From: SAR86 cluster bacterium
Lineage (GTDB): Bacteria > Pseudomonadota > Gammaproteobacteria > Magnimaribacterales > Magnimaribacteraceae
Assembly: GCA_029268615.1 (NCBI GenBank)
Contig: JAQWNM010000010.1
Coordinates: forward strand, 1 to 64,000
Direction of reading: 5' to 3'
Length of the DNA stretch: 64,000 nt
Shown: positions 259 through 27,204 of the stretch, piece by piece
How the letters are laid out: each line of letters begins with the position of its first letter
How positions within the stretch are numbered: position 1 is the stretch's first letter
Position numbers and translations under genes: made by a program
The notes under the pieces: model-generated
Told to the model about the DNA's origin: nothing
Seen by the model: only the letters and a program-made list of their open reading frames with translations
The model's database searches: none

Positions 259-1512
259 TCAATAAATCCTAGAAACAACTTCGTCCTTGATTGAAATCTC
301 TCTATCAGACCTCTTTAAGTTCATTTCAGTCCATACTGAATCTAAAGCATCTACGAAATTATTAATATCTTCTTTTTGATGCCTAGGAGTAATAGTTACC
401 CTAAATCTTTCATCGCCTTTAGGAACTGTCGGAAAAAAAACAGGCTGGATATAAATACCATGTTTTTCAATTAACAGATTAGCAGCTTCTTTACATAGGA
501 TGGGATCATACAAATGAATTGGAATAATATGGCTATCATTCTCTAAGAAAGGTATCTTCATTGCTCTAAGTCCTTCCCTGATTAAAGTTGAATTAATTTT
601 GATATTATCTCTTAAAGTATCTGCTTTTTTTGCAAGCTTTATGCTTGTTAAAGAAGCTGCTGCAATGGAAGGATTCATCGAAGAAGTAAAAATAAAACCT
701 GGAGCAAAACTTCTAATAAAGTCAATTAAATCAGAACTAGCTGCTATATATCCACCCATCTGACCAAAGGATTTAGATAAAGTACCGTTTATAATATCTA
801 TACCGTCCTCAACATTTAGTTCAGCTGCTATACCTCTTCCCTCTGGACCATAAAGACCTACAGAATGAACTTCATCTAAGTAAGTTAGAGCATTATATTT
901 TTTTGCAAGATCTACTATTCTAGATAAAGGCGATCTAATTCCTTCCATAGAATACAAGGATTCAAATACTATAATTTTAGGTGTATTCGCATTTGACGTC
1001 TCTAGTAACTCTTCTAAATGAGACGTGTCATTATGTCTAAATACATGGCATGTGACATTTGCATTCTTGATTCCTTGAATAAGAGAAGCATGATTAAGCT
1101 CGTCTGAATAAACTTCTACACTGTCCATATTCTTGCACAATGTCCATAAAGTTGATTGGTTGGCAGTATAGGCTGATGGAAAAAGTAAGCTTGATTCTTT
1201 ACTATGCAACTCTGCAATAGCTTGCTCTAAGTCAACATGATAAGTAGAGGTTCCTGAAATATTTCTAGTTCCTCCAGACCCAGTACCTAGTTCATTAATT
1301 ACTTCAATAGAAGTATTAATGACTTCTGGATGCTGACTAAAATTTAAATAATCATTACTGCACCAGACTTCAACTTCTCTGCTTACGCCTTCATAAAGTT
1401 CAGTTGCTTTAGGGAAACTAGATTGATTTCTATTGATAGCTCTAAATTTTCTATATAGACCTTGAGACTTAAGAGAGATGAGCTCATCTGAAAAGAATTT
1501 TTTATAATTCAT
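259..1512 (-). CDS. hemA: 5-aminolevulinate synthase (C4/Shemin pathway)
   Basis: 417 aa, about the usual ALAS length. ALAS is a PLP enzyme that condenses glycine with succinyl-CoA to give 5-aminolevulinate, the first step of the C4 haem route. Visible features are the N-terminal [16 protein letters not shown] segment, CSNDYLNF (51-58), the glycine-rich [13 protein letters not shown] (76-88), [10 protein letters not shown] (213-222) and the PLP lysine K247 in GTLSKSFG. The related enzymes KBL and BioF share the fold, but the N-terminus and the haem-gene context favour ALAS. It is divergent from hemC with 119 bp between. Most Gammaproteobacteria instead make ALA from glutamyl-tRNA, so this gene is unusual if the host is one. 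It would share the symbol hemA with the unrelated glutamyl-tRNA reductase. Confidence 0.93.
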
Positions 1513-1631: not shown

Positions 1632-3143
1632 ATGAAACTAAAGATAATCTCTAGAAAGAGTGCCCTTGCACAAATTCAAGCAAATCAAGTAGCTAAAAAA
1701 ATATTAGACTCAGATCCTTCTATCGAAATAGATTTTATTCTTAAAGAGACTCAAGGTGACATAGATTTATCCACTCCTTTACATCAAATGAAAGAACCAG
1801 GAGTTTTTTCAAAAGATATAAAGGCGGAACTCTTAAATGGAAATGCAGATATAGCCATCCATTCATGGAAAGATCTACCAGTTGATCTAGATGAAGGAAC
1901 AGAAATTATTGGCACTATCAATAGAGCAGATATGAGGGATATGTTGTTCCTAAAAAAAACAAGTAAATATAATAATACTCTTAATTTATTCAGCTCCTCA
2001 CCTAGAAGAGAAAGAAATCTTAAAAGTTTTTTACCGAAAGCGCTGCCAGGAAACAACATAGATGTAGACTTTCATGATATCCGAGGAAATATTCTTACTA
2101 GATTTAAAAAGCTTCAGGATAGTTCACTTGACGGTCTAATAGTTGCTAAAGCTGCCATAGATAGATTGATCAATGATGACAACCCTACTTTCCTTGCAGA
2201 GCAAACGGAATTAAAAAAAATTATAGAAGAAATGGCATGGATGATCCTTCCATTATCTGTCAACCCTTGTGCTGCAGCTCAAGGCGCTATTGCAATAGAA
2301 GCCAAATCTGAAAATACTAAAATAAGATCAATAATAGATAAATTAAGTGATAAAACAATATTTCAAGCCGCACAAGAAGAAAGAGAAATTTTAAAATCTT
2401 ATGGAGGGGGATGTCATCAAAAGATTGGGGTGAGCCTCCAACAGCATAAATTAGGTGAGATCCTTAATGTCATTGGTGAAACAGAGGAAGGGCTAGAAAT
2501 TAATATGCATTCTTTTAGGCCTAAAAAGGTTATAAAAAAATTTTTTAAAGGTGCAAGCAAGGAATCTATCTATCCACAAAAAAATGAAAAGCCTCTATTC
2601 TTTAAAAGAAAACCCATCAAACATTTTAACGAAGAGCTTTCTAAAATAGATAATGCAGGAATTTATATAAGCAGATCTAATGCTTTAGATTCTGAGATAT
2701 TTATCAAAGAATCTAATTATATCTGGGCCAGTGGTATAGAGACATGGTTAAATTTAGCAAAGTCTGGAAAATGGGTTAATGGCTGCTCTGATAGCTTAGG
2801 TGAAGAAGAAAGCCCCGCAAACAACCCCTTCTCAGTAATTAAATGGTATAAGCTTTCACATAACAATAAGATTAATTCAGAAAGAATTATTTCTACATAT
2901 GAATTAATACCTTTGAAACTTGATCCTTCAATTGGAAAAAAAACACACTTTTTCTGGATGAGTGCTTCTTCCTTTGAAAGAGCCATTGAAGAGTTCCCTG
3001 AAATATTAAATGCAAAGCATGCATCAGGACTTGGAAAATCCTTTGATATTATTGAAAGTCATACTCCCGGAAATGTTCAACCGTTTCTTGATTATCAGGA
3101 CTGGATAGATCAATTAGAATCTAATTGCCCATCCTCTTTTTGA
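1632..3143 (+). CDS. hemC: Hydroxymethylbilane synthase with HemD-like C-terminal extension
   Basis: 503 aa, while HemC alone is about 310 aa. Residues 1 to ~320 are porphobilinogen deaminase: HSWKDLP (77-83), SSPRRERNL (122-130), RGNILTR (151-157), and C261 in YGGGCHQKIG as the expected dipyrromethane cofactor attachment site. The extra ~170 residues (about 335-503) contain segments such as IWASGIETW, WVNGCSDSLGE and FFWMSASSFERA, which look like a divergent uroporphyrinogen-III synthase (HemD) domain. Bifunctional HemC/HemD proteins are reported in Leptospira, and no separate hemD is visible here. The HemD assignment rests on motif resemblance. The 3' end overlaps the convergent MFS gene by 34 bp. 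Confidence 0.9.
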   Translation: MKLKIISRKSALAQIQANQVAKKILDSDPSIEIDFILKETQGDIDLSTPLHQMKEPGVFSKDIKAELLNGNADIAIHSWKDLPVDLDEGTEIIGTINRADMRDMLFLKKTSKYNNTLNLFSSSPRRERNLKSFLPKALPGNNIDVDFHDIRGNILTRFKKLQDSSLDGLIVAKAAIDRLINDDNPTFLAEQTELKKIIEEMAWMILPLSVNPCAAAQGAIAIEAKSENTKIRSIIDKLSDKTIFQAAQEEREILKSYGGGCHQKIGVSLQQHKLGEILNVIGETEEGLEINMHSFRPKKVIKKFFKGASKESIYPQKNEKPLFFKRKPIKHFNEELSKIDNAGIYISRSNALDSEIFIKESNYIWASGIETWLNLAKSGKWVNGCSDSLGEEESPANNPFSVIKWYKLSHNNKINSERIISTYELIPLKLDPSIGKKTHFFWMSASSFERAIEEFPEILNAKHASGLGKSFDIIESHTPGNVQPFLDYQDWIDQLESNCPSSF

Positions 3144-4411
3144 TTTAATAATAATGCAGCTCCCAGCAGGAATATAAGAAACACTAAACATATCTTTGCA
3201 GACATTGTATAAGTTCCAAAATAATCATAACCTAAACTAAATGCAGCCGGTCCTATAGCGCTTGCAAAGACTGTTAAAGAAGTACTAAAACCGCTTATTT
3301 CACCCAAATGTCTAGGTCCAAAGAACCTAATAAATGCTAGGTTTGAAATTACACCCCAAAGACCGCCTCCTACTCCAAACCCAAAAGCTAATAACCAAAA
3401 TCCCCAACTAAGTTCTAAATTAATTAACCCCCAAGAGCCAAAGCAAAAAGTTATCAACATAATTATTAAAATTGGCTTTAGAGAAATTTTATCAGCAATC
3501 CAACTAGCGCAAAGATTGGCTATAGTCGAAAAAATTGCTGCTGGTATAAAATAACTAAAAGCCTCTGAGGATGTTTTACCTGCTTCTGAAAATATAGCAA
3601 CTATATGAAAAACAATAGCGGTCCCAAACATAGCATGCATGCTTAAGCTAAGAGAATAAATCCAAAATATGGGATTTAATTTTGCCTGTTCTAGAGTTTG
3701 ACTGGGTGTTTCTAACTGAAACTCTTCATCTGATTTAGAGTCTGAACCATCGGCTCTCAGACCACATGATTCTGGATTGTCTCTTATAAATATCAATGCT
3801 AAAAAAGAAAACCCTACTCCTCCAAGTAAACTCAGAATCCATAAAGACTCTCTCCAACCATAGGTCGCTATTAAACTTGCTAAAAGCAATGGGGCTAGAG
3901 AAAATCCTAAACTCACAAAAACGCTCCTAGCTCCTGAAACTAAACCTCTTCTTTTTACAAACCAAAGAAGTAATACATTTCTTGAGCAGCTTGTTAAAAT
4001 ACCTTGTCCAAAAAATCTGACCCCAAAATAACCAATTAAGATTAATAAAAAACTAATAAAAGAAGGTCCACCTAGAGTTAAACGAATAATATCTATGAAG
4101 CTGATATACAAAATCATTAAAGACAATGCTATGGAAGCTGCACTAATCATGACCCTGCCACCAAGTTGGTCATACCATTTTCCTGCTTTAGCTAAAAATA
4201 ATGCTGACCCTAATGTTCCTGCTAGATAAGCTAAAGAGAGTTGAGTCCTAGTTAATCCTAAAACATCTATAAATGACTCTGTAAAAACAGCCAATCCCAT
4301 GGTTTGACCCGGAATACTAAATAAAATTCCTAAAGTACTAATTATCCAGATTACCCAGCCATAAAAAAATGGTATTTTACTTGGTCTGAATGGCCAAACT
4401 GGTGAGATCAT
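3110..4411 (-). CDS. MFS transporter
   Basis: 433 aa with about 12 hydrophobic segments, typical of the major facilitator superfamily. The loop between helices 2 and 3 carries GKWYDQLGGRVMI, close to the MFS signature G-x-x-x-D-x-x-G-R/K. A hydrophilic stretch around residues 215-240 matches the usual central cytoplasmic loop. It lies inside the haem cluster but on the opposite strand, convergent with hemC and divergent from hemB. Substrate is not recognisable. Position alone is weak evidence for a tetrapyrrole-related role. Confidence 0.85.
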   Translation of the reverse strand: MISPVWPFRPSKIPFFYGWVIWIISTLGILFSIPGQTMGLAVFTESFIDVLGLTRTQLSLAYLAGTLGSALFLAKAGKWYDQLGGRVMISAASIALSLMILYISFIDIIRLTLGGPSFISFLLILIGYFGVRFFGQGILTSCSRNVLLLWFVKRRGLVSGARSVFVSLGFSLAPLLLASLIATYGWRESLWILSLLGGVGFSFLALIFIRDNPESCGLRADGSDSKSDEEFQLETPSQTLEQAKLNPIFWIYSLSLSMHAMFGTAIVFHIVAIFSEAGKTSSEAFSYFIPAAIFSTIANLCASWIADKISLKPILIIMLITFCFGSWGLINLELSWGFWLLAFGFGVGGGLWGVISNLAFIRFFGPRHLGEISGFSTSLTVFASAIGPAAFSLGYDYFGTYTMSAKICLVFLIFLLGAALLLNQKEDGQLDSN

Positions 4412-4504
4412 TGGTATTTCCCTATAAACGATGTTTGCGCAAGGATATAGTAGTTATTATTTTACTTCTAGGTATTAATGAAAGTGACAAGATTTATCAA
4501 GCCC

Positions 4505-4535
4505 TAGACCTGTATATACTTTTACAGGTTATAAT
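4505..4535 (+). promoter_or_regulatory. MerR-type promoter/operator of hemB
   Basis: A -35-like TAGACC (4505-4510) and a consensus -10 TATAAT (4530-4535) are separated by 19 bp, longer than the normal 17. The spacer region holds a perfect 7-bp inverted repeat, ACCTGTA (4508-4514) and TACAGGT (4523-4529), with 8 bp between arms. This geometry (19-20 bp spacer with a dyad starting inside the -35 and ending at the -10) is characteristic of promoters activated by MerR-family proteins such as CueR and SoxR. No merR gene is in the window, so the regulator is unknown. The predicted start site is under 10 nt from the hemB ATG. Confidence 0.6.
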
Positions 4536-4548
4536 TAGAGAAACATAT

Positions 4549-5544
4549 ATGAAAACCATTAGAAAATATCCATTTACTAGATTAAGACGAACTAGGACTT
4601 CTTCTAATTTAAGATCAATATTGAAAGAAACTGACTTAAGACCTTCTGATTTAATCCAACCACTTTTTATAAAAGAAGGCTTGAAAGGATCTGAGCCTAT
4701 CCCGTCCCTTCCGGGTATAGATAGGTTAGGATTAGATGTCCTAAGTCAAGAAATTAAAAATATTGAAGCTGCTGGAATTCAAGCCATAGCTTTATTCCCC
4801 GTTATAGACCCTGCAAAAAAAGATGCACGTGGAGGCGAAGCTCTCAATGAGGACAATCTAATTTCTCAAGCAATAAGACAAATAAAAGATAATTCAGACA
4901 TTATTATAATTGCTGATGTTGCTCTAGACCCTTATACAACTCATGGTCATGATGGACTATTAGACAACAATAACTATGTAGATAATGACTTAACTCTTCC
5001 AGTATTGATAAATCAATCTTTAGTCTTGGCTAAAGCTGGAGCAGATGTAATCGCCCCATCTGACATGATGGATGGAAGAATTAAAGTAATCAGAGAATCT
5101 CTGGAGGAAAATGGCTTCTTTAATACATTACTTCTTTCGTACTCAGCAAAATTTAGTTCTAAATTTTATGGCCCTTTTCGGGATGCTGTTGGATCTTCTA
5201 CAAATCTGGGAGAAGGAAGCAAAGATACTTATCAAATGCCGATTGCAAATATAAACGAAGCTCTACATGAAGTTGCCTTAGATATCCAAGAAGGTGCTGA
5301 CATTGTCATGGTAAAACCAGGAATGCCTTATCTTGATGTTATAAAAGCTATAAAAGAAGAATTTTTATTACCTACCTTTGGATATCAGGTTAGCGGTGAA
5401 TATGCGATGCTTAAAGGTGCTATTGAGAAAGGATGGCTTTCAGAAGAGGTAATCATAGAATCTTTACTTTGTTTTAAACGCGCAGGTACTGACTGTATTA
5501 TTACTTATGCAGCTAAAGAAATTGCATTAAAACTTAATAAATAA
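4549..5544 (+). CDS. hemB: Delta-aminolevulinic acid dehydratase (porphobilinogen synthase)
   Basis: 331 aa from the ATG at 4549. A longer frame from 4390 exists, but homologues begin at MKTIRKYPFTRLRRTR and the promoter lies inside the extra part. The enzyme joins two ALA molecules into porphobilinogen. The Schiff-base lysines are K201 (SYSAKFSS) and K256 (VMVKPG). The active-site metal segment reads DVALDPYTTHGHDG (123-136): the three zinc-binding cysteines of the E. coli type are replaced by Ala/Asp/Asp, as in the zinc-independent, magnesium-type enzymes of Pseudomonas and Bradyrhizobium. It is followed 11 bp later by hemE in the same direction. Confidence 0.95.
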   Translation: MKTIRKYPFTRLRRTRTSSNLRSILKETDLRPSDLIQPLFIKEGLKGSEPIPSLPGIDRLGLDVLSQEIKNIEAAGIQAIALFPVIDPAKKDARGGEALNEDNLISQAIRQIKDNSDIIIIADVALDPYTTHGHDGLLDNNNYVDNDLTLPVLINQSLVLAKAGADVIAPSDMMDGRIKVIRESLEENGFFNTLLLSYSAKFSSKFYGPFRDAVGSSTNLGEGSKDTYQMPIANINEALHEVALDIQEGADIVMVKPGMPYLDVIKAIKEEFLLPTFGYQVSGEYAMLKGAIEKGWLSEEVIIESLLCFKRAGTDCIITYAAKEIALKLNK

Positions 5545-5555
5545 AAGGTCTAAAA

Positions 5556-6578
5556 TTGTCCAATTTAAGATTCAAAAATGCCCTGCAAAGAATACCTCAA
5601 AGAACTCCTCCTATATGGTTTATGAGGCAAGCTGGTAGATACCACAACCACTATCAGAATTTAAAAAAAAATTTCTCATTTGAAGACCTCTGTAAAACAC
5701 CTAAACTTGCAGCTGAAACTGCCATGGGACCAATAGAAGAATTTGATTTTGATGTAGCTATCTTATTCAGTGATATTCTCTTCCCTCTAGAGTCATTAGG
5801 TATGAATTTGACCTATAACCCTGGACCTATTTTTGGTAACCATCTAACAGAAAATAACTTAAGTAGTCTAATAACTGAAACTAATCCAATTAACTCTCTT
5901 GAATTCCAAGGTGAAGCAATAGAAAGAACTCTTGAAAGACTATCTGATGATAAATCACTAATTGGATTTATAGGTGGACCTTGGACATTAATCTCCTACG
6001 CCTGCGGCTTAAATAAGGAAACTAAAAACCAAAAGCTCAACAAGTTTAAACTAACTTTACTTGACGAGACAATCTTGCCTCTTCTAGAGCAAAATATTGA
6101 ACTACAACTCAAAGCGGGTGCAGAAAACTTGATGATCTTCGATTCGTTAGCACATCAATTATCAAAGGAGGATCTGTACCTTTATTTATCAAAAACTTTT
6201 TCTTCCCTAATAAATAAATTTCCTGGAAAAATTGGCTACTATGCTAAAGATGGAATTGACTATTCTTTAATTCTAAAAACAATAAATAATGCGGATATAC
6301 CGATTGCTGGATTAGGAGTTGATTCTCATGAAGATATTACCTCCTACCTTAAATCTACTACTCATGGATTTACTCAAGGTAATTTCAATGAAAATCATTT
6401 AACTCTTCCTAAAGAAGAATTTATAAGTTATTTAGATCCTTACCTTGAAAGAATGGCTAGTCTTAGTGATGAAGATAAAGCTGGCTGGGTTTGTGGCTTA
6501 GGCCATGGTGTATTAAAAACTACAGATCAAGAAAATGTAAAAGAATTTGTTAAAAGAGCAAGATCGGTATTCTGTTAG
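5556..6578 (+). CDS. hemE: Uroporphyrinogen decarboxylase
   Basis: 340 aa. It decarboxylates the four acetate side chains of uroporphyrinogen III to give coproporphyrinogen III. The family signature MRQAGRY is at 23-29, followed by GPIEEFDFDVAILFSDIL with the conserved aspartates and by GGPWTLISY. The only start that leaves a complete N-terminus is TTG at 5556, preceded by AAAAGG about 8 nt upstream; the next in-frame Met is in MRQAG, inside the active-site motif. It sits between hemB and hemF in one transcription unit (gaps 11 and 6 bp). Confidence 0.95.
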   Translation: MSNLRFKNALQRIPQRTPPIWFMRQAGRYHNHYQNLKKNFSFEDLCKTPKLAAETAMGPIEEFDFDVAILFSDILFPLESLGMNLTYNPGPIFGNHLTENNLSSLITETNPINSLEFQGEAIERTLERLSDDKSLIGFIGGPWTLISYACGLNKETKNQKLNKFKLTLLDETILPLLEQNIELQLKAGAENLMIFDSLAHQLSKEDLYLYLSKTFSSLINKFPGKIGYYAKDGIDYSLILKTINNADIPIAGLGVDSHEDITSYLKSTTHGFTQGNFNENHLTLPKEEFISYLDPYLERMASLSDEDKAGWVCGLGHGVLKTTDQENVKEFVKRARSVFC

Positions 6579-6584
6579 AAAGAA

Positions 6585-7397
6585 ATGAATATTGAGGAAA
6601 AAAAGAAACTTACATCTGCCTGGTTTAAACATCTAAGAGATACTTTTTGTAATGAGTTTGAAGAAATAGATGGAACCAGTTTTGATAGAAGTTATTGGGA
6701 TCATAAGTTCTCTGGTGGGGGAGAAATGAGCATAATGAAAGGTAAAATTTTTGAAAAAGTAGGTGTTAATATATCTACCGTGTCTGGAAAATTTGATGAT
6801 AACTTTAAATCACAAGTTAAAGGAACTGAAAAATCTTCAGATTATTGGGCAAGTGGAATAAGTCTTGTTGCTCATATGCATTCACCAAAAATACCTGCTT
6901 TTCACTTCAATACCAGATTTTTAATTACTGGTGACTCATGGTTTGGAGGTGGAGGAGATTTAACACCTACAATAACTTCAAAAAAAGATACTGATTTTTT
7001 TCACGCTTGCATGAAAGAAGCCTGCGATAGCGCAAATGATAGTTATTACAAAACTTTCAAAGAAGCTTGTGATGAATACTTCTATCTACCGCATAGATCA
7101 GAGTCCAGAGGAGAAGGTGGTATTTTTATTGATCACTTAAAAACAGACTCTTGGAGCAATGATTTTGCCTTCATTAAAGAAGTAGGAAAATCATCTCTTA
7201 AAGCAATTTCAACAATAATTCGTAACAATAAAGATGAACCCTGGACAGAAGAAGAAAAGGAACAACAACTCATTAAACGAGGACGATATGTCGAATTTAA
7301 TCTTATATGGGACAGAGGAACTACCTTTGGCTTAAAAACAGGAGGTAATATAGAAGCAATTCTTATGTCAATGCCACCTTCCGCTAAATGGAAATAA
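6585..7397 (+). CDS. hemF: Oxygen-dependent coproporphyrinogen III oxidase
   Basis: 270 aa, slightly shorter than E. coli HemF (299). It oxidatively decarboxylates coproporphyrinogen III to protoporphyrinogen IX using O2. Recognisable blocks are HFNTRFLITGD, WFGGGGDLTP, YFYLPHRSESRGEGGIF and the C-terminal RYVEFNLIWDRGTTFGL-KTGGN segment. It lies 6 bp after hemE and 4 bp before hemJ, so translation is probably coupled. Use of HemF implies aerobic haem synthesis; no hemN is in the window. Confidence 0.96.
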   Translation: MNIEEKKKLTSAWFKHLRDTFCNEFEEIDGTSFDRSYWDHKFSGGGEMSIMKGKIFEKVGVNISTVSGKFDDNFKSQVKGTEKSSDYWASGISLVAHMHSPKIPAFHFNTRFLITGDSWFGGGGDLTPTITSKKDTDFFHACMKEACDSANDSYYKTFKEACDEYFYLPHRSESRGEGGIFIDHLKTDSWSNDFAFIKEVGKSSLKAISTIIRNNKDEPWTEEEKEQQLIKRGRYVEFNLIWDRGTTFGLKTGGNIEAILMSMPPSAKWK

Positions 7398-7401
7398 TGA
7401 T

Positions 7402-7824
7402 ATGAATACTTTCCTAGTTATTAAAGTTATTCATATCATTTCTGTAATTACCTGGATGGCAGCACTTTTTTATCTTCCTAGAATATTTGTTTATCACGCA
7501 ACAAAAAAGGTAGGAACTGACACTTCTGAAACTTTTAAAACTATGGAGGATAAACTTTTATCTTTAATTGCCAATCCCTCTTTGGTCATTGTATGGATTT
7601 CTGGTCTATTTTTATTTGGCTATAAGGAACTGGAAGTTTGGCTTGTTTATAAAATGTTTTTAGTTCTAGCAATGACTTTATTCCACTTTTATCTTAGGAA
7701 CGTACAGAAAAAATTCTCTGAAGATCAGAACATAAAATCTGAAAGATTCTTTAGAATAATTAATGAGATTCCTTCAGTTCTTTTGATAGGTATAATTATT
7801 TTAGTAGTATTTCAGCCTAAATAA
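7402..7824 (+). CDS. hemJ: Protoporphyrinogen IX oxidase, HemJ type
   Basis: 140 aa integral membrane protein with four predicted helices (about 5-25, 53-73, 79-98, 119-137). HemJ oxidises protoporphyrinogen IX to protoporphyrin IX. The N-terminal KVIHIISVITWMA segment with H11 and the following LPRIFVYH with H32 match the family pattern. It is the last gene of the hemB-hemE-hemF-hemJ run and fills the step between HemF and ferrochelatase, supporting the assignment; no hemG or hemY is visible. Confidence 0.92.
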   Translation: MNTFLVIKVIHIISVITWMAALFYLPRIFVYHATKKVGTDTSETFKTMEDKLLSLIANPSLVIVWISGLFLFGYKELEVWLVYKMFLVLAMTLFHFYLRNVQKKFSEDQNIKSERFFRIINEIPSVLLIGIIILVVFQPK

Positions 7825-8880: not shown

Positions 8881-9082
8881 TCAATTCACTTTATCATAAC
8901 AATGAATTAAGCATTAATAATAGACAAATGAGATCGCATTTAGCATGCATCATCCAAGTTCATATTTACTTTTCTCCTCAAGACCTCCTATGTCTAAAAT
9001 TATATAATAACTCAATTAATTTAATTAAGAGTTAATAAAACCTCTAAGTCTTAATAAAAAATTTTTGTTAAACTTAAAAAAT

Positions 9083-10072
9083 ATGAAAGGAATTCTATTA
9101 ATCAATTTAGGCTCTCCAAAAGATTTAAATCTTGAATCAGTTAAAATTTACCTTAAAGAATTTTTGGAAGATGAACTTGTAATAGACATACCTGCATTTC
9201 TTAGAAAAATATTAGTTACTAACTTTATAGTACCTTTCAGAGCTAAAAAGACTCTGGAAGCTTATAAAGCGATCTGGAAAGAAGACGGTTCTCCCTTAAT
9301 TATAAATACAAGATCTTTAAAAGAAAAATTACAAAAAGAAGCAACATATCCGATTGAATTTGCAATGAGGTACCAAGAACCTTCAATAGAATTATCCATG
9401 AAAAAGTTAATTGATAAAGGATGTACTTCTTTGATCATTTTACCTCTTTACCCTCATTATGCTATGGCAACTTCTCTTACTACCATTAGAAAAGTAGAGG
9501 AGATAAATAATAAACTTCAATCTAAATTAAAATTAAAATTTATAAAATCTTTTCATAATAACTCTCAATACATACATGCACTTAGCACTAAAATTAAACC
9601 ATTTATTAATAATATTGATTACTTATTATTTAGTTATCATGGCATTCCTAAAAGTCATTTAACTAAAATAGATCCTACAGGAAGTCATTGCTTAAAAAGT
9701 AAAAATTGTTGCCAAGTGGAGTCAGAGGCAAAGCAATATTGCTATAAATCACAGGTCTTAGAAACCTCAAGATTGTGCGCCTCATCATTAGAATTAAAAA
9801 ATAAACAATGGGGTGTAGCATTTCAATCTAGGATAGGCCCAGGATGGCTTAAACCTTTTTCTGATATTGAATTTAAGGAACTGCCAAAAAAAGGATTTAA
9901 AAACATAGCAGTTGTATGCCCATCATTTCTTCTTGATAATCTAGAAACTCTAGAAGAAGTTCAGATAAGAGGACGAGAAACTTTTATAAGTGCTGGAGGC
10001 GAAAACTTTTATTATATTCCATGCTTAAATCAAGATGACCTTTGGATAGATTGTTTAACAAATCTAATATGA
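9083..10072 (+). CDS. hemH: Ferrochelatase
   Basis: 329 aa from the ATG at 9083 (MKGILLINLGSP); an upstream in-frame TTG at 9065 adds six poorly conserved residues and is less likely. It inserts Fe2+ into protoporphyrin IX, the last haem step. Catalytic-site segments are LFSYHGIPKSHL (with the metal-site His), a cysteine-containing region around GSHCLKSKNCCQVESEA, FQSRIGPGWLKP, and VVCPSFLLDNLETLEEV with the conserved acidic residues. It follows a 200-bp non-coding gap after the divergent nitroreductase, so it has its own promoter. Confidence 0.96.
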   Translation: MKGILLINLGSPKDLNLESVKIYLKEFLEDELVIDIPAFLRKILVTNFIVPFRAKKTLEAYKAIWKEDGSPLIINTRSLKEKLQKEATYPIEFAMRYQEPSIELSMKKLIDKGCTSLIILPLYPHYAMATSLTTIRKVEEINNKLQSKLKLKFIKSFHNNSQYIHALSTKIKPFINNIDYLLFSYHGIPKSHLTKIDPTGSHCLKSKNCCQVESEAKQYCYKSQVLETSRLCASSLELKNKQWGVAFQSRIGPGWLKPFSDIEFKELPKKGFKNIAVVCPSFLLDNLETLEEVQIRGRETFISAGGENFYYIPCLNQDDLWIDCLTNLI

Positions 10073-25182: not shown

Positions 25183-27204
25183 TTACATTTTAAAAAGTAT
25201 TTCTTTTAATTCAGATACTCTGTCACGCATACCAGCAGCTGATTCAAAATCTAAATCTTTAGCTTTTTTATGCATCTTAAGCTCTAAACTCCTTATCTCT
25301 TTTTTCAGCTTATTAGAATTATTTAATTTCTCTATTGGGGTGAAGTTAAGTTTGTCTATTCTTTCATGCTGCATTTTAGATATTTTTCCTTTTCCTTTAC
25401 TAGATCTTGCACCTTCTAATATATCAGGAACTTCTTTCTTGATTCCTTTCGGAGTTACATTATTCTTTTTATTGAAATTCTGTTGAATAGATCTCCTCCT
25501 ATCAGTCTCATTAATAGCTCTTTCCATAGAGCCAGTAATTTTGTCTGCATAAAGTATGGCCTTACCTTTAATATGTCTTGCAGCTCTTCCTATAGTTTGT
25601 ATTAATGATCCTTCAGATCTCAGAAAACCTTCTTTATCTGCATCTAAAATAGCAACTAACGAAACCTCAGGTATATCTAATCCTTCCCTTAATAGATTTA
25701 TTCCTACAAGGACATCGAATTCTCCTAAACGAAGATCTCTAATTATTTCCACCCTTTCCACAGTGTCTATGTCAGAATGAAGATAACGAACTTTCACATT
25801 ATTTTCTTCTAAATAATCTGTAAGATCTTCGGCCATCCTTTTTGTTAGAACCGTTACCAAAACTCTTTCTTTTAAATTTGTTTTTTTAACTATTTCAGAA
25901 AGTAAATCATCTACTTGATAGGTAGCTGGTCTAATTTCAACCTCTGGATCTAATAATCCTGTTGGTCTAACTAATTGTTCTACTGTTTCTTCTGAATATG
26001 CCTTTTCATATTTACCTGGCGTGGCAGTTACAAAAACTTTTTGACCCGAGATTAACTCCCATTCTTCAAATCTTAATGGTCGGTTATCTAGTGCTACTGG
26101 TAATCTAAATCCATAATCAACCAAAGTTTGTTTTCTAGATCTGTCACCCTTATACATTCCACCCAGTTGCGGCAATGTTACATGCGACTCATCTACAAAT
26201 ACTAAAGCGTTTTGTGGTAAATAGTCATAAAGAGTGGCTGAAGGTTCGCCAGGCTGTCTATCAGTTAGAAAACGAGAATAATTCTCTATTCCAGAACAGA
26301 ATCCTAATTCTTTTAACATTTCTATATCATATAAAGTCCTTTGTTCTAACCTTTGTGCCTCCACTAACTTATTTTCTTTCTTAAAATAGGATAATCTAGT
26401 TTTAAGCTCTTCTTGTATAAATTCAATAGCCTTTAAAATTCTATCTCTGGAAGTTACATAATGCGACTTAGGAAAGATAGTTATCCTCGGAACTGTTTTA
26501 AGTATCTCGCCAGTTAATGGATCAAAAATTTTGATCGACTCTATTATATCTAAATCAAGCTGTATTCTGATTGCATTTTTATCTGAATCTGCAGGATAAA
26601 CATCTATACTATCTCCTCTTGCCCTATAAACTGCTCTTTTAAAATCGACTTCATTTCTTTCATATTGAAGTTCTGCTAGCCTTCTTAATATTGTTCGCTG
26701 ATCTACTTTATCTCCTCTATCGAGATGTAGTACCATCTGTAAATAAGATTGAGGGTCGCCAAGTCCATAAATAGCGGAAACTGATGCCACAACTATTACA
26801 TCTTTTCTTTCTAATACTGATTTAGTTGCAGATAACCTCATTTGTTCGATATGCTCGTTAATTGAAGCATCCTTTTCTATAAAAATATCTGTGGTAGGAA
26901 CATAAGCTTCTGGTTGATAATAATCATAGTAAGAGACAAAGTACTCAACTGCATTATTTGGAAAAAATGACTTAAATTCTCCATATAACTGTGCAGCTAA
27001 AGTTTTATTATGCGCTAAAATAATTGCAGGCCTCTGCAATTCATTAATTATACTTGCCATCGTAAAAGTCTTACCAGATCCTGTAACACCTAGTAATGTC
27101 TGATTTAAAAGTCCATTCTTAATTCCCTTAGTTAATTCTTTAATAGCCTTGGGCTGATCTCCATCTGGCTTAAAATCTGAAACTATTTGAAATTCTTTTG
27201 TCAT
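25183..27204 (-). CDS. uvrB: UvrABC system protein B
   Basis: 673 aa, full length. Damage-verifying helicase-like subunit of nucleotide excision repair. Walker [11 protein letters not shown] near residue 40, the beta-hairpin region [21 protein letters not shown], the helicase motifs [20 protein letters not shown] and QTIGRAARH, and a C-terminal UVR domain ([18 protein letters not shown]) for UvrC contact. No LexA box is seen in its AT-rich upstream region, unlike umuDC in this window. Confidence 0.97.

Follow-up and report, generated by a model that had tools for sequence, protein, structure and literature searches.

A shrunken HemD-like domain fused to HemC in the haem gene clusters of SAR86 bacteria and their marine counterparts

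Introduction

SAR86 bacteria are very common in the surface ocean, and the haem gene cluster of one of them raises a simple question: which enzyme makes uroporphyrinogen III, when the cluster holds no hemD gene? We analysed a stretch of 64,000 nucleotides at the start of a SAR86 contig (the window), in which the cluster and a transporter gene lying in it are laid out as follows.

259..1512, minus strand: hemA, 5-aminolevulinate synthase (TIGR01821, 545.3 bits, cut-off 338.55)
1632..3143, plus strand: hemC with a HemD-like tail (a single open reading frame of 503 amino acids, stop codon within the coordinates)
3110-4411, minus strand: major-facilitator transporter gene, between the hemC-hemD gene and hemB
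4390..5544, plus strand: hemB, porphobilinogen synthase (PF00490, E 4.7e-127)
5556..6578, plus strand: hemE, uroporphyrinogen decarboxylase (PF01208, E 3.2e-62)
6585..7397, plus strand: hemF, coproporphyrinogen III oxidase (PF01218, E 1.7e-91)
7402..7824, plus strand: hemJ, protoporphyrinogen oxidase (TIGR00701, 138.9 bits, cut-off 138.05)
9065..10072, plus strand: hemH, ferrochelatase (PF00762, E 2.1e-90)

Judging from the sequence, the true start of hemB is probably the ATG at 4549. The transporter gene and the 3' end of the hemC-hemD gene share 34 bases. The transporter looks inserted because hemB directly follows hemC, by reading, in L062 and L083, two SAR86 loci of the other tailed family.

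The first-pass annotation had sought the answer in hemC itself: its product has a C-terminal extension with segments resembling uroporphyrinogen-III synthase (HemD), which might be a minimal or rearranged form of that enzyme. Here, the predicted fold of the extension, its remote homology, its mutual exclusion with HemD and the phylogeny of HemC were computed, and together they suggest, with a probability of about 0.9, that the product of the gene is a bifunctional HemC-HemD fusion whose tail would be a catalytically active, shrunken HemD.

Results

The tailed protein

The HemC part of the 503-residue protein ends at about residue 311.

1632..2564, plus strand: HemC (hydroxymethylbilane synthase) part, residues 1-311 (matches to PF01379, TIGR00212 and HemC entries of the PDB)
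2412..2414, plus strand: codon of Cys261, the presumed attachment site of the dipyrromethane cofactor (GGGC; the same in 57/57 aligned sequences)

The Pfam porphobilinogen deaminase domain (PF01379) covers residues 3-232 (E 3.7e-47), the NCBIfam hemC equivalog (TIGR00212) covers residues 3-274 with 184.2 bits, above its cut-off of 164, and the full-length AlphaFold2 model matched HemC chains in the PDB (best E 9.3e-24, 301 columns). An alignment of the window protein with 56 relatives has Cys261, K80-D81, R125-R126, R151 and R157 invariant in all 57 sequences, and we take these to be the catalytic residues of HemC. The two family models and the invariant cysteine bear out the earlier placement of the HemC motifs and of C261 within the first ~320 residues.

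The remainder of the frame contains the following features.

2565..3140, plus strand: HemD-like domain, residues 312-503 (AlphaFold2, Foldseek, Z 12.6 with 4es6)
2655..2861, plus strand: putative second lobe, residues 342-410 (IYISRSNA strand, WASGIET, WVNGCSDSLGE, WYKLSH), assigned from the HemD profile alignment
2772..2804, plus strand: motif WVNGCSDSLGE, residues 381-391, typical of the shrunken variant (counts over 88 tails)
2898..2900, plus strand: codon of Tyr423, which aligns with Y148 of alignment A5, the Tyr that is invariant in canonical HemD
2913..3125, plus strand: putative C-terminal part of the first lobe, residues 428-498 (FFWMSASSF, HASGLGKS)

Searches of residues 312-503 against Pfam and NCBIfam at E 10 gave no match, under HMMER filters that discard most matches above 0.1. 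Conservation of the tail is high. Among 20 sequences of one family, the window's included, mean column identity is 71% in the tail versus 76% in the whole protein, and in a set of 88 unique tails one residue occupies the position in at least 85% of sequences at 25 positions. Gly368, Tyr423, Trp442, Ser444, His463, Gly466 and Gly468 are identical in 88/88 tails, and the counterpart of Tyr423 on the HemD side is Tyr in 22/22. Within WVNGCSDSLGE the most constant residues are W381 (87/88), N383 (85/88), G384 (87/88), D387 (86/88) and G390 (87/88). There is some latitude elsewhere: the Thr of the first motif (WASGIET) is Thr or Ser in Bdellovibrionota tails, and position 470 is Ser in the window protein and Thr in 86/88 tails. 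Since the tail is conserved almost like the whole protein and occurs in long open frames, it is not a chance read-through.

The extension is shorter than a full HemD, as had been noted before. In 144 tailed frames (88 unique), a median of 238 residues follows the cofactor Cys; the figure is 289 for 5 fusions with recognisable HemD and 62.5 for stand-alone HemCs, the last value coming from 6 rows only and from a search motif (GGGC/GSGC) that is not general. This puts the HemD part at ~175 residues versus ~227, and we infer that the tail is a HemD some 50 residues smaller in which both lobes and the linking strands are kept. By reading of the alignments and of the DSSP string of the model, shortening may have affected the first helix in lobe 1, together with helices and loops in lobe 2.

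Fold and homology

AlphaFold2 was given the window protein and relatives from a contig scan that returned 61 loci. Its model of the whole protein has a pLDDT of 91.9 and a pTM of 0.91; for the tail alone the values are 85.5 and 0.73. When the tail model was compared with the PDB by Foldseek, the best 12 chains (9 entries) were all HemD, with E from 8.5e-6 to 1.2e-3, and the next row was an unrelated chain at E 0.024; TM-scores for the HemD matches, normalised by query length, were a moderate 0.41-0.63, with rmsd 4.9-9.1. With a second structure aligner the Z values of HemD ran from 12.6 to 8.7, and the first unrelated chain reached 5.0. The best match is 4es6, the HemD of Pseudomonas aeruginosa (rmsd 3.3, 184 aligned of 249), the Z of 8.7 belongs to 1jr2, which we take to be human HemD, and the HemD-like construct 6th8 scored 6.0. 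The best 50 rows of the fold search with the full-length model contain HemC chains, then unrelated folds, and no HemD, because the HemC part fills the list. Comparison of a predicted tail structure with HemD, the check proposed at the outset, returned a HemD-like fold: in the models the tail has the two lobes of uroporphyrinogen-III synthase.

The sequences point in the same direction when compared as profiles. Aligned by hhalign, 88 tails and 112 HemDs match with a probability of 80% (E 1.3e-5, score 43.3), collinearly over 140 columns, and with one of 74% (E 2.8e-5) in the opposite direction. Against the real score of 43.3, the reversed profile reached 12.1, 200 column shuffles at most 20.1, and 200 shuffles of 20-column blocks at most 38.2 (with a probability of 71.7%). 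A smaller tail set (A3) compared with 54 HemDs gave a probability of only 30%. In an earlier run, with a misplaced HemC piece (L186) in the set, a circularly shifted control scored 28.3 versus 28.19 for the real profile; a circular shift keeps most of the order and is thus no independent control. Alignment A3, drawn from the 61-locus set, leaves out L105 and L120, which end at contig ends, and L101, which has unknown residues; A4 additionally omits L076 and L102, and L193 and L196 are missing from one profile alignment. In the profile alignment WASGIET falls on the Gly-x-x-Thr motif of HemD, Tyr423 on its invariant Tyr, and FFWMS on the second of its Thr-Ser strands; such HemD positions presumably line the active cleft.

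Searches below the level of profile pairs or folds were silent. PF02602 (HEM4) matched 0/59 tails even at E 10, the tail HMM gave canonical HemD no useful score (best E 0.33), no open frame matched the tail HMM and the HemD HMM both at E 1e-3, and PDB sequence searches with the tail and with its profile returned no HemD. Lying below the gathering cut-off of PF02602, the tail is a divergent relative of HemD that is not filed under Pfam HEM4. The HemD-like segments described earlier are therefore upheld by profiles and folds and lie below every single-sequence search used; of the two forms then considered, minimal stands, and rearranged falls because the match to HemD is collinear.

Mutual exclusion with HemD

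If the tail replaces HemD, genomes that have one should lack the other. At E 10, PF02602 found no HemD in the whole window genome (96% complete): its sole match has 16.8 bits, under a cut-off of 27.5. The match was considered as a hidden stand-alone HemD and rejected, for it sits in the Helicase_C part of UvrB (25183-27204). The weak HEM4 matches of this UvrB gene (16.8 and 15.7 bits) are a trap for automatic hemD searches, and three genomes of genus g2 have comparable ones (19.3-19.9 bits) in long open frames. The absence of a separate hemD, first noticed in the otherwise complete cluster, thus extends to the rest of the genome, and a canonical hemD is equally missing from the 54 tailed genomes of the order. 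By way of yardstick, HEM4 was found in 51/56 genomes drawn from the class.

The order (SAR86) comprises 203 genomes, 168 of which have HemC: the tail occurs without HemD in 54, HemD with a HemC of ~300 residues and no full tail in 113, and neither of the two in one (G134) (genome sets compared by reading the lists, with HEM4 counted over the cut-off). One further genome (G183) has HEM4, and HemC was not found in it. Two genomes (G147 and G153) were rejected as tailed because their matches span 40-47 model positions with stop codons (E 0.005), which leaves 54 tailed genomes instead of 56. The split between tail and HemD follows families (f1 and f2 versus f3 and f4). It therefore amounts to few events in evolution, and a Fisher value of 1e-43 makes the case look stronger than it is.

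The phylum of Halobacteriovorax, which we take to be Bdellovibrionota, repeats the pattern. Among its 290 genomes, 197 have the tail (E 0.001), 34 have HEM4 over the cut-off and a single one has both, versus 23 expected by chance (Fisher 1e-17, again inflated by clades). The HemD of that genome (G886) is part of a fusion with a tetrapyrrole methylase (PF00590) and so probably serves sirohaem. Two other candidates for the overlap (G785 and G860) were dismissed, as their HEM4 matches fall under the cut-off; the matching frames read as PurH-like and as a short-chain dehydrogenase. Of the 25 genomes that hold loci L096-L120, 24 have no PF02602 match. The exception (G203, locus L096) has a PS1-like tailed hemC contig in a bin annotated Gammaproteobacteria, which also holds a canonical HemD; it is probably a mixed bin. 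In haem-making genomes the tail thus takes the place of HemD, the two occurring together in 0/168 and 1/290 genomes.

Phylogeny and gene context

The tail occurs in 54/203 genomes of the order, always inside an open frame of 495-534 amino acids. In the window's own family a full-length tailed HemC is present in 20/35 genomes, the window's included, and the others are 49-54% identical to it. The 15 remaining genomes of the family (G001-G006, G009-G015, G017 and G018), including one that is 93% complete (G004), have no hemC match; perhaps they have lost haem synthesis and use imported haem, although many of them are incomplete. The contig scan used two short peptide patterns, which distant forms escape, and its 61 loci fall by annotation into SAR86/Gammaproteobacteria, small marine alphaproteobacteria (PS1 / OCS116, Rhodobiaceae, Alphaproteobacteria) and relatives of Bdellovibrionota. 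The tail is fused to HemC in 59/59 complete loci, L105 and L120 being truncated at contig ends. The tail is rare across the window's wider phylum, with 2/398 genomes, the window's own and G636, a genome of 1.2 Mb from another class.

In an unrooted tree of 76 HemC domains, chosen out of 256 HemC-matching frames and without tail-less alphaproteobacterial HemC, a single branch (100/96) separates all 37 tailed rows from the rest. Their neighbours, with moderate support (94/81), are five Bdellovibrionota fusions with PF02602 at the same place, and then come seven HemCs of Bdellovibrionota whose HemD is separate (99/95). Another three HemCs of this last kind lie among Gammaproteobacteria, where the tail-less SAR86 HemCs also group, and the marine rows are joined by three tailed Bdellovibrionota rows, two of which belong to one genome. 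The label ALPHA of the L244 row is a guess. The simplest reading would be that separate genes gave a HemC-HemD fusion whose HemD half then shrank and changed, all within the Bdellovibrionota lineage. Two SAR86 families and marine alphaproteobacteria would then probably have acquired the tailed hemC, with other haem genes, by transfer.

Gene order is consistent with such a transfer. By reading, the tailed hemC lies beside haem genes in 8 neighbourhoods and in L244 (Pfam covered 5 genes in L098 and 3 in L106). SAR86, PS1 and G636 have in common an opposite-strand hemA followed by tailed hemC, (hemB), hemE, (hemH), hemF and often hemJ, the genes being named by reading except in the window and L098; this shared order supports transfer as a block. 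The hemA of the cluster encodes a 5-aminolevulinate synthase, an enzyme usual in Alphaproteobacteria and unusual for Gammaproteobacteria, and the cluster with this Shemin-route gene, shared with PS1-type alphaproteobacteria and G636, is probably a transferred block. Neighbours differ in the Bdellovibrionota loci L106, L111 and L116, where the tailed hemC sits between glutamyl-tRNA reductase-like and aminotransferase genes, with hemE further on (families checked by Pfam for L106 only).

Some of these neighbourhoods have peculiarities of their own. The glutamyl-tRNA reductase-like genes upstream of hemC (L106 3211-4086, L111 3047-3967, L116 2980-3909) encode only ~290-310 amino acids, and in that of L106 Pfam found the N-terminal domain alone. 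After hemF, where the window has hemJ, L062 (9437-9958) and L083 (9440-9961) have a frame that reads like a flavodoxin-type HemG. In the OCS116/PS1-type locus L098 (5516-6551), hemE is split into two overlapping frames of 239 and 147 amino acids, perhaps by a sequencing error.

Discussion

Our results suggest that the apparently missing step is carried by the tail of HemC. The HemC half would join four porphobilinogens on the dipyrromethane cofactor at Cys261 to give hydroxymethylbilane, which the HemD half would take over, flipping ring D and closing the ring to uroporphyrinogen III. HemE, HemF, HemJ and HemH of the same cluster would convert this product into haem. Fusion of the two halves may help to pass on the unstable bilane intermediate.

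Other readings of the tail have to be weighed against this one. The fold by itself is no proof of catalysis, because HemD needs few fixed catalytic residues, and the nearly invariant WVNGTSDSLG of the tail has, by reading, no counterpart in the HemD profile. One might thus imagine a domain of HemD descent that now serves HemC in a structural or regulatory role, with uroporphyrinogen III made by an unrelated, unrecognised enzyme. We consider this unlikely: the enzyme would have to be confined to the tailed genomes, given how rarely tail and HemD occur together, and the conserved Gly, Tyr and Ser of the tail align with those of HemD. Doubt could reach further back, to the homology itself, since no single-sequence, Pfam or PDB-sequence search matched the tail to HemD and its TM-scores are moderate; another two-lobed, Rossmann-like family might merely look like HemD. 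That HemD takes the first 12 places among PDB chains, ahead of a gap, that the profile match has an E of 1.3e-5 and that the adjoining lineage of the HemC tree has a recognisable HemD at the same place make a chance likeness very improbable.

Just as improbable, in our opinion, is that the tail is a decayed relic in organisms that live off haem from outside or whose ring closure is non-enzymatic. The 15/35 family genomes without a hemC match might be cited in its favour, although many are incomplete. Against it, the tail is conserved about like the HemC protein (71% versus 76%, with its 25 near-constant positions), and the genes for the later steps (hemE, hemF, hemJ and hemH) have their full length; HemF, moreover, needs the III isomer. 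The bifunctional fusion with a shrunken HemD thus remains the preferred reading. A bolder version of it would make the tail the smallest known HemD, with the WVNGTSDSLG segment aiding bilane binding or cyclisation in a way unlike canonical HemD, a fixed packing of HemC on HemD for direct passage of the bilane, and a history as the usual form in Bdellovibrionota that spread to two ocean groups; we regard this full set of claims as doubtful, if conceivable.

The preferred reading would close the gap that haem synthesis seems to have, for want of hemD, in much of SAR86 and in 197/290 genomes (roughly two thirds) sampled from the phylum of Halobacteriovorax. As the Pfam and NCBIfam models are blind to the tail, such genomes would be scored as lacking the HemD step. 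The tail would also show how far HemD can shrink, and a natural single-chain HemC-HemD may offer a system for studying the transfer of the unstable bilane. Finally, our results indicate a haem gene cluster common to SAR86 and small marine alphaproteobacteria.

Several known systems invite comparison. In Leptospira interrogans HemC and HemD also form one chain, presumably in the order HemC then HemD. Both activities are reported for that fusion in PMC8698207, which cites Guegan 2003 for them, and our likening of it to the tailed protein rests on this description. According to the same paper, the HemC of Plasmodium was claimed to be bifunctional and turned out to make only uroporphyrin I, a precedent by which the activity of a fusion has to be assayed (PMC8698207). 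The tailed protein differs from the Leptospira fusion in that its HemD part is ~50 residues below the usual HemD and unseen by Pfam and NCBIfam.

The Bdellovibrionota fusions (L265-L269) come closer, with the same domain order, a nearly equal total length (501-534 amino acids) and a HemC that adjoins the tailed HemCs on the tree. However, their HemD scores 81-101 bits to PF02602, their median length after the Cys is 289 residues versus 238, and the tail HMM gives no match to them at E 1e-3. Stand-alone HemD (PF02602; 4es6, 3re1, 1jr2) shares with the tail the two-lobed fold (Z 8.7-12.6, 173-190 residues aligned) and the positions of conserved Gly, Tyr and Ser. In contrast, the tail is shorter, is only 8-13% identical, stays below the Pfam cut-off and, in every complete locus of the scan, is joined to HemC. 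Among the matches listed in our literature search, in which subscription journals are thinly covered, none described a shrunken HemC-HemD variant in its title or the start of its abstract. The HemC-HemD fusion is known already; its version with a shrunken HemD, invisible to the current models, appears to be new.
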